The notes beneath the pieces were generated by a model, which worked only from the letters and a program-made list of their open reading frames with translations, ran no database searches and was not told the DNA's origin. The translations under genes were made by a program, and so were the position numbers. This document shows, piece after piece, positions 19,808 through 21,488 of a DNA stretch of 23,087 nucleotides. Every line of letters begins with the position of its first letter. Within the stretch, counting starts at the first letter, position 1. Source of the stretch: a virus; the IMG/VR virus record IMGVR_UViG_3300038701_002284, positions 1 to 23,087 of that record; one strand, 5' to 3'.

Positions 19808-20100
19808 CCCTCACCGTCCTTGCCTGCTAGGGCTTTGTTTATGGTATCTAAGGATTCTTTGCCTAATAAAGAGTGACCCCCTTCTATCTCAAAAGACTTT
19901 TTAAAATGCTCAAGCGCCTCACGCAGCCTTTTGATTTCTTCCTGGGCCTCAAGGTAGGCTTGGTGTTCGATGACGTGGAAGTATTCTGATCGGTCTGAAT
20001 GGAATTTGTCACAGTAATCAAAAACTCCTAAAATTGATAGATCGCCCCTTATGTTTTCCTTATGCCAAATTGCAAACTCCCTCGGCTCAGTCTTGCTCAT
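19804..20100 (-). CDS. Small hypothetical protein after the cytosine methyltransferase
   Basis: A 98-residue protein; the ATG at 20100 overlaps the methyltransferase stop by four bases and uses AGAGGAG inside that gene's tail as its ribosome site. It contains FAIWHKENIRGDLSILGVFD, then QAYLEAQEEIKRLREALEHF (coiled-coil-like), and a Lys/Gly-rich end. The RLRxAL helix resembles one in the protein of 21492-21797. There is no enzyme motif. The family is unknown. Confidence 0.55.
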   Translation of the reverse strand: MSKTEPREFAIWHKENIRGDLSILGVFDYCDKFHSDRSEYFHVIEHQAYLEAQEEIKRLREALEHFKKSFEIEGGHSLLGKESLDTINKALAGKDGEG

Positions 20101-20936
20101 TCTTGCTCCTCTTGGGTTTCGATCACTCCCATTAAATATTCAAAAGCTAATCTTGCTTGCGCTGGCACGACACCATTTCCAAGGGCTTTAAGTCTGTCCA
20201 CCCTAAAGGCAGTCCCATCATCATCTCGACAAATTGCGGGTTTAGGTAACCCTTGTATCCCCTCGAATGCACCAGCACAGCCATGCTTGGCGAATGCCTC
20301 CCATGGGGTTTGGGGTTCAAGCCATCCTTGTGATCCCGCGCTTGTGGTACGGGCCATAAGTTTTTTCTTGCTAGGCTGTTTAAGCTCTGTCGTTTTGGGC
20401 CCCTTCTTCCCGCGGCGCCACCTTGACTGTAACCGGACTGACTCGCTGTTGGCGTGGGCAAGCATGAAAAATCTTTTCCTTTGGTGAGGGGCTCCAACAT
20501 AATTGGCTGATACATTTGTCCATCGACAATCATACCCCATAGAGGAAAATTCTTCGGCGACATTATATAATCCTCTAGTGCGTATTGCCGGCACGTTTTC
20601 GAGAAAAACAAAACTGGGCTGAATCTCTTTGGTAAGGCGAGCAATCTCGAAAAAAAGACCGCTTCGCTCTCCGCCCAAACCGACTCCATTTCCTGCACAG
20701 CTAATGTCCTGGCAGGGGAATCCTCCAGTGATGATGTCACAGATTTGAGGCTCACCTTCGATGTTTTTGACATCTGCAAGTATTGGAGCTCTTGGGAGAG
20801 ACCCATCGGCCATTCGACTTGCGATAATTTTTTGTGCGTATTCTTCGATTTCGACATAAGCAATTGGTTTACACCACTCCTCTAGAGCTAAAGTTAATCC
20901 ACCATAACCTGTAAACAAATCTAGTGATTTCAACAT
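20097..20936 (-). CDS. DNA (cytosine-5-)-methyltransferase
   Basis: A 279-residue protein with the C5 methyltransferase motifs in order: I SLDLFTGYGG (residues 4-13), IV GGFPCQDIS (C75 catalytic), VI FLENVP (112-116), VIII QRKRFFML (152-159) and X ALGNGVVPAQ (251-260). The region between VIII and X is only about 90 residues, so the target-recognition domain is short. It transfers a methyl group from SAM to C5 of cytosine; the target site cannot be read from sequence. No restriction enzyme is near, so protection from host restriction is the likely purpose. The +1 frame of this gene is open for 238 codons (see that entry). It ends in VIETQEEQE, a tail repeated in the gene at 18506. Confidence 0.9.
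   Translation of the reverse strand: MLKSLDLFTGYGGLTLALEEWCKPIAYVEIEEYAQKIIASRMADGSLPRAPILADVKNIEGEPQICDIITGGFPCQDISCAGNGVGLGGERSGLFFEIARLTKEIQPSFVFLENVPAIRTRGLYNVAEEFSSMGYDCRWTNVSANYVGAPHQRKRFFMLAHANSESVRLQSRWRRGKKGPKTTELKQPSKKKLMARTTSAGSQGWLEPQTPWEAFAKHGCAGAFEGIQGLPKPAICRDDDGTAFRVDRLKALGNGVVPAQARLAFEYLMGVIETQEEQE
20147..20863 (-). CDS. Possible overprinted protein in the +1 frame of the methyltransferase gene
   Basis: A 238-codon open frame, +1 relative to the methyltransferase and inside it. Its product has segments that I recall from phage and bacterial proteins listed beside C5 methyltransferases: FPLWGMIVDGQMYQPIML, SCLPTPTASQSGYSQGGAAG, LWPVPQARDHKDG, and LNPQFVEMMMGLPLGWTDL. The first ATG/TTG (20863) has no close ribosome site (AGGAG is about 19 bases away). 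The match could be real dual coding. It could also be a shadow of methyltransferase conservation that has been predicted as a gene in many genomes. Treat it as a candidate only. Confidence 0.35.
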   Translation of the reverse strand: MLMSKSKNTHKKLSQVEWPMGLSQELQYLQMSKTSKVSLKSVTSSLEDSPARTLAVQEMESVWAESEAVFFSRLLALPKRFSPVLFFSKTCRQYALEDYIMSPKNFPLWGMIVDGQMYQPIMLEPLTKGKDFSCLPTPTASQSGYSQGGAAGRRGPKRQSLNSLARKNLWPVPQARDHKDGLNPKPHGRHSPSMAVLVHSRGYKGYLNPQFVEMMMGLPLGWTDLKPLEMVSCQRKQD

Positions 20937-20945
20937 TATCGACTC

Positions 20946-21488
20946 TCATTTTTGGTTATTTTGTTGAGTGCTATCTGGTTGATTTTCTTTAATAAAAGCG
21001 ACCCAATGAGTATGTGCTTTTTTGCCCGAATGATGCCCATATAAAGGTTTTTGGTCTGTTAAAGATAAAACCTTTTTTAAAGGTATCTCTGTGCTGGCCC
21101 ATTTGAAAATTAAAGTGCCGTTGGGTCTTAATACCCTAAAACATTCACTAAAGCCTTTTTTTATATCATCTTCCCAGGTCTCTTTATTTAGCACACCATA
21201 TTTAAACGGAAATATCCCAGTTTTGCCACTCCCTATAGTTTTTGCCGTTAAGTGGGGCGGGTCAAAGATAACATGGTGAAAAGTATTATCTTGAAGTACC
21301 ATTTCTCTGAAGTCCTGAACAAGGTCTGGTGCTACTACTACTGGCGACCTGCCTTTAGTGCTAGGGGTCCCTAAGTCGGCATCTCTCTTGCCCTGCCTGT
21401 TATCACAAAACAAAACCCTATAATCTTTTTTGTCGAACCAAAACATACGAGATCCACAACACGCATCCAAAACTTTTTTCTCACCCAT
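20946..21488 (-). CDS. Class I SAM-dependent methyltransferase, probably DNA
   Basis: A 180-residue protein with VLDACCGSRMFWFD (SAM-binding motif I, residues 6-19), LFCDNRQGKR (acidic end of strand 2), VIFDPPHL (D76-P-P-H, catalytic DPPY-like) and GTLIFKWASTEIPLKKV near the C-terminus, then GKKAHTHWVAFIK. The DPPH motif and the small size match the phage N6-adenine/N4-cytosine-like methyltransferase group that I recall with 'DACCGSRMFWFD'. The amino group modified cannot be decided. The ATG lies 3 bases after the upstream stop, and the cytosine methyltransferase follows 9 bases later, so the two are coexpressed. Confidence 0.75.
   Translation of the reverse strand: MGEKKVLDACCGSRMFWFDKKDYRVLFCDNRQGKRDADLGTPSTKGRSPVVVAPDLVQDFREMVLQDNTFHHVIFDPPHLTAKTIGSGKTGIFPFKYGVLNKETWEDDIKKGFSECFRVLRPNGTLIFKWASTEIPLKKVLSLTDQKPLYGHHSGKKAHTHWVAFIKENQPDSTQQNNQK

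Follow-up and report, generated by a model that had tools for sequence, protein, structure and literature searches.

Two described C5 cytosine methyltransferases, M.EcoHK31I and M.AquI, come closest to the locus analyzed here. M.EcoHK31I is a bacterial enzyme described in 1995 by Lee, Kam and Shaw; its small polypeptide is reportedly encoded in a second frame within the gene of the large subunit. In this enzyme, motifs I-VIII and X lie in the large subunit and motif IX lies in the smaller polypeptide (PMC3404938). M.AquI, with its alpha and beta chains, is a natural C5 methyltransferase split into catalytic and recognition parts, and its motif X lies in beta (PMC3404938).

In this study, we analyzed a viral DNA stretch of 23,087 nucleotides (IMG/VR record IMGVR_UViG_3300038701_002284), referred to as the window, which carries a C5 methyltransferase gene on its minus strand. 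The frame-0 product of this gene (alpha) holds motifs I-VIII and X, the arrangement that marks the large subunit of an M.EcoHK31I-type enzyme; M.EcoHK31I was compared by its description. The trait reported for that enzyme, a small polypeptide in another frame inside the large gene, was also found in the window, where the +1 frame would encode it (beta). The recognition domain of M.EcoHK31I was predicted to lie in the large subunit (PMC3404938), whereas the selection data for the window place this region in the +1 product. The division into catalytic and recognition parts resembles that of M.AquI, but motif X of the window lies in alpha, and motif X was found in beta only at the loci L130 and L144 and in the Baby16 gp79/gp78 pair. 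Alpha folds in the model as the large domain of the single-chain enzymes M.HhaI and M.HaeIII; in these enzymes, a single frame holds motifs I-VIII, the recognition domain and motif IX, whereas frame 0 of the window has neither of the latter two in a recognizable form. The +1 protein belongs to the family phrog_1008, which PHROGs label only as 'DNA methyltransferase', the overlap being absent from the entry, and no paper describing this overlap in phages was found in our literature search. On this comparison, the window methyltransferase is best filed with M.EcoHK31I as an enzyme that would work in the same way. We propose, with a probability of about 0.86, that it is a two-subunit C5 methyltransferase of the M.EcoHK31I kind, both subunits of which are encoded by one DNA segment in two frames.

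Results

Alpha (20097..20936, minus strand, as are all features below; 279 aa) matched Pfam PF00145 at 1.2e-37 and phrog_363 at 2.4e-63. Its motif IV, GGFPCQDIS with the catalytic Cys (20700..20726), and its motif VIII, GAPHQRKR (20472..20495), were located in alignments A1 and A6, and motif X, RVDRLKALGNGVVP, lies in frame 0 at 20163..20204. In +1, an open run of 238 codons (20147..20863; first codon TTG) has the position and length given in the first-pass annotation, and all of the segments quoted there are present. Two conserved segments of beta stand out in alignment A5, namely WGMIVDG (20519..20539; G110 and G115 nearly invariant) and LPTPTAS (20441..20461; T137 and P138 nearly invariant). 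The latter is LAHANSE read in +1, directly after motif VIII. A third segment, LNPQFVEMMMGLPLGWTDL (20189..20245), is motif-IX-like and overlaps the approach to motif X of alpha, being the +1 reading of PAICRDDDGTAFRVDRLKAL, the stretch that leads into this motif. The +1 protein matched the phrog_1008 profile at 2.4e-18, and sequence searches of Pfam, NCBIfam and the PDB gave no match to it. The upstream neighbor (20946-21488, minus strand), which ends 10 bases before alpha, resembles another DNA methyltransferase (IFDPPHLT motif), and the phage may carry these two modification genes in tandem.

Using only the frame-0 protein, we gathered 80 relatives from IMG/VR and another 80 from genomes of bacteria. 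Since the query profile (A1) had been built from genes found via their +1 frame or via the window gene, the 160 relatives sample one lineage and not all C5 methyltransferases. All 80 IMG/VR relatives and all 80 bacterial relatives had a long ORF in +1 that was recognized by the +1 profile. In 78 distinct relatives, the +1 frame contained 174 stops, mostly at gene ends outside the open run, versus 511 expected from synonymous shuffling. A +1 run covering at least 70% of the gene was found in 95% of 80 methyltransferases versus 1.2% of 86 other genes from the same loci. In five single-chain C5 methyltransferases that have an in-frame motif IX, the number of +1 stops was as expected, and the +1 LNP motif was missing from all five. 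A stop in alpha or in beta was seen at a few loci (L022, L142 and L162). Junction-preserving shuffles had little power, since the dinucleotides from which +1 stops arise are retained in them. Mean +1 conservation relative to shuffles was inflated by shared ancestry in every frame; therefore, codon-position tests were used instead.

The tblastn matches of the +1 protein examined in GenBank phages (L001-L007) were without exception +1 readings of a C5 methyltransferase gene, and Paenibacillus phage Shelly annotates the protein as 'g55 internal gene'. The first-pass annotation had pointed to a protein family of this kind and had left room for it to be a set of shadow predictions, with a stop-rich +1 frame in close relatives and unconstrained third positions. 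In close relatives, however, the frame has stayed open, and there is strong constraint on third positions; homologues that lie mostly apart from the methyltransferase gene also exist (Mycobacterium phage Baby16 gp78, L144 and L130). The family in question proved to be a real conserved +1 protein, phrog_1008. Judged from the sequences, it is nearly certain that the second frame within the methyltransferase gene is a genuine gene.

Between motifs VIII and X, differences in 34 independent pairs fell on frame-0 codon positions 1, 2 and 3 in 454, 113 and 75 cases, respectively (binomial p ~3e-83). Because the wobble position of +1 codons coincides with frame-0 position 1, these counts indicate purifying selection on the +1 protein and little selection on frame 0. 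The pair L005/L025 alone gave 28, 6 and 3, the +1 protein being nearly identical and frame 0 heavily altered. The nearest relative of the window, L009, is ~70% identical in frame 0. Within the part from VIII to X, 41 of 84 residues were identical between the two in +1 (score 155) versus 23 of 82 in frame 0 (score 40), and +1 outscored frame 0 against 123 of the 134 relatives. Together with the pLDDT values given below, these comparisons characterize the stretch at 20208..20444 as a linker in frame 0, predicted to be disordered and under little protein-level selection, and as the putative recognition region of beta in +1.

Fourfold-site divergence was profiled in the group of genes without the FAGAGG start, to which the window belongs. 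It was ~0.5-0.6 up to aa 100, ~0.3 at aa 111-120 and aa 131-140, and 0.02-0.11 at aa 231-250 (LNPxFVExxMGxPxGW; ~0.55 elsewhere), and it was back to ~0.5 at motif X, where the frame-0 codon pattern reappears. Since divergence drops over the LNP motif and then recovers at motif X, both frames must be read, and translation appears to run to the end in both. Protein-level selection acts on both frames in different parts of the gene, with a clear switch from frame 0 to +1 and back to frame 0.

The AF2 model of alpha had a pLDDT of ~95 over aa 1-165 (motifs I-VIII), ~40-48 over most of aa 181-240 and 83-97 over aa 251-270 (motif X helix). Foldseek matched it to M.HhaI and M.HaeIII over ~168 residues (E ~1e-15 to 1e-14). 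Alpha is predicted to fold as an HhaI-type large domain without a small domain, the place of the recognition domain being disordered. No motif IX was seen in frame 0 in the sequence alignment.

At the column of alpha aa 66, a start codon with a Shine-Dalgarno-like sequence was enriched (42 observed vs 15.2 in shuffles), the typical family sequence being gcGAGGAATTG-TTG. From this family start and the enrichment at its column, the probable beta of the window would be a protein of 197 aa starting from the GTG at 20740 (20147..20740); an alternative start is the ATG at 20689 (180 aa). The purine-rich stretch nearest to the GTG, aaggtgag, lies ~11 nt upstream, which is long, and no well-spaced Shine-Dalgarno sequence was found there. 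Many genes of the FAGAGG group (65% of all genes aligned) contain, in addition, an ATG in +1 that follows the alpha start by four bases, so that beta may be longer in this group. Starts in +1 with a Shine-Dalgarno-like sequence were enriched at one more column, that of aa 269 at the end of alpha (19 vs 3.7).

The LNPxFVExxMGxPxGW segment of beta resembles motif IX, the canonical form of which is RKLTPRECWRLQGFP. A motif IX matrix made from five canonical enzymes had its best site on this segment in 57 of 93 betas, which are related to one another. When beta was compared with canonical methyltransferases by profile (hhalign), motif IX was not recovered at a significant level; the only signal was motif X of the split betas, and it was weak. 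The identification of the LNP segment as motif IX is only suggestive. AF2 modeled beta alone poorly (mean pLDDT 59), and this poor model had no Foldseek match in the PDB.

Beta was accompanied by alpha at every locus examined. It forms a single family, strong members of which in phrog_1008 are Baby16 gp78 and the internal gene of Shelly, and it is also found as a nearly separate gene in split versions in mycobacteriophages (e.g., Baby16 gp79/gp78). In L144, L130 and Baby16 gp78, beta continues beyond the end of alpha, and motif X is part of the beta frame; for this reason, it is very probably a functional methyltransferase part in these three cases.

Several variants of the arrangement were also noticed. 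The +1 proteins of L010 (2023-3342) and L039 (2005-3240) contain several WPTPTARD-like units, and frame 0 there reads as VADADSER-like repeats. In L068 (1920-2897), frame 0 ends with WVEWLMGWPIGWTDLKPLAMGKFQKW, which is the C-terminus of beta, and the frames are swapped near the end, presumably by an indel. An E. coli prophage (L174, 42-1028) carries a second, different methyltransferase type with a long +1 frame that contains PTPVAND and LNPAHSRWLMGLP segments. Two single-chain enzymes with motif IX in frame (L259 and L260) nevertheless have +1 runs of 165-173 codons with weak matches to the +1 profile, perhaps a relic of an overlapping ancestor.

Discussion

In the proposed two-subunit enzyme, alpha would provide the catalytic large domain, in which a connecting segment of nearly arbitrary sequence links motifs I-VIII to motif X. 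Beta would be a separate polypeptide translated in +1 from a probable internal start near alpha codon 66, at the GTG at 20740 or, less surely, the ATG at 20689. It would carry the target-recognition region and the motif-IX-like segment, which together would form the small domain. We infer that alpha and beta would pair, that beta would determine the sequence at which the phage genome is methylated, and that this methylation would most likely serve as protection from host restriction.

The family was suggested in the first-pass annotation to have been born by overprinting of a methyltransferase. This view was not supported in that form: the C-terminal part of the gene is selected in +1 while frame 0 is nearly free; the +1 product therefore looks like the small domain of the enzyme itself, with its frame moved. 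An overprinted novel protein family is not favored, +1 being the constrained frame in the small-domain part. It is more likely that the frame-0 linker, rather than the +1 product, is the overprinted newcomer. The small domain of a canonical gene may have been shifted to +1 by compensating frame changes, with an internal start rescuing the second chain.

The two frames are open and overlap, and it is conceivable that a programmed ribosomal frameshift, instead of internal initiation, fuses the N-terminus of alpha to the recognition domain; a shift near motif VIII would join motifs I-VIII and this domain in one chain. However, the +1 constraint precedes motif VIII, with its start at ~aa 101 of alpha (fourfold divergence 0.44, then 0.32 and 0.29 vs ~0.6). 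This makes a frameshift less likely, since a shift early enough to explain the constraint would lose motifs VI-VIII. Motif X is also constrained in frame 0 to the end, the start codon and Shine-Dalgarno-like sequence are enriched at aa 66, and beta is an ORF of its own at the split loci. We consider frameshifting improbable. Slightly less probable still is that the +1 product is a real protein with a separate job, such as an anti-restriction or regulatory one, and not a methyltransferase subunit. In favor of this reading, beta had no match to a solved structure or a Pfam family, and profile comparison did not reveal motif IX in it. But frame 0 has neither a foldable recognition domain nor motif IX, beta always occurs together with alpha at the loci examined, the split betas carry motif X, and the LNP segment is the best site of the canonical motif IX matrix in more than half of the betas.

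There is very little probability that the +1 frame is a mere shadow, open and conserved through frame-0 and codon-usage conservation. Its similarity over motifs IV-VIII is indeed partly dictated by frame 0, and all of the alternative frames outscore shuffles in sequences that share ancestry. Between VIII and X, however, it is the +1 protein that is conserved and not the frame-0 protein, and the open run is neither reproduced by synonymous shuffles nor present in single-chain relatives. The shadow-ORF reading was rejected on the stop deficit, the contrast with neighboring genes, the single-chain controls and the codon-position pattern.

Beyond the two-subunit enzyme proposed for the window, it is likely that all members of this lineage of phage and bacterial C5 methyltransferases strictly require two subunits, their recognition domain being encoded by the catalytic gene in its +1 frame. 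If this is true, the frame-0 segment annotated as a variable or recognition region is a passive read-through linker, and many annotated single-gene cytosine methyltransferases are inactive or without specificity from frame 0 alone. The arrangement of the 1995 oddity looks like a common design, present in all of the frame-0-selected relatives and in many bacterial phyla, and it is mostly unannotated in phages and bacteria. Gene callers usually retain one frame, so that recognition subunits are missing or labeled hypothetical, and cloned or recoded genes with frame 0 only may be dead. It is also an unusually long overlap, on one strand, between two functional domains of the same enzyme.

A separate observation concerns motif IV of other methyltransferases, in which a six-base insertion lies exactly between the Pro and the catalytic Cys (GGFP-stop-x-CQDIS, and also GGYP-TGA-CCN-CQPFS). 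It was found at L018 (2220-2246), L146 (1871-1897), L264-L269, L271-L283, L285, L288, L294, L296, L303, L304 and L315, which represent ~20 distinct phage methyltransferases, ~18 of them distinct FPCQD-type genes (clusters at 95%) and at least 2 of the YPCQP type. When insertions of 1-31 bases were scanned for at this site, exactly six bases were found in 17 of 20 matches. In all recognizable methyltransferases with the insertion, it opens with a stop codon (TAA, TGA or TAG), and the inserts seen were TGACCA, TGACCT, TGAACA, TGATCA, TAACTG, TAACTT, TAATTA, TAGCTG and TAGCCC. Candidate explanations are ribosome hopping (CCN-stop-CCN), readthrough (the +4 base is mostly C) or something else. Selection persists on both halves of these genes, with a position-3 excess on the two sides of the insertion (275/233/792 and 1057/583/1706).
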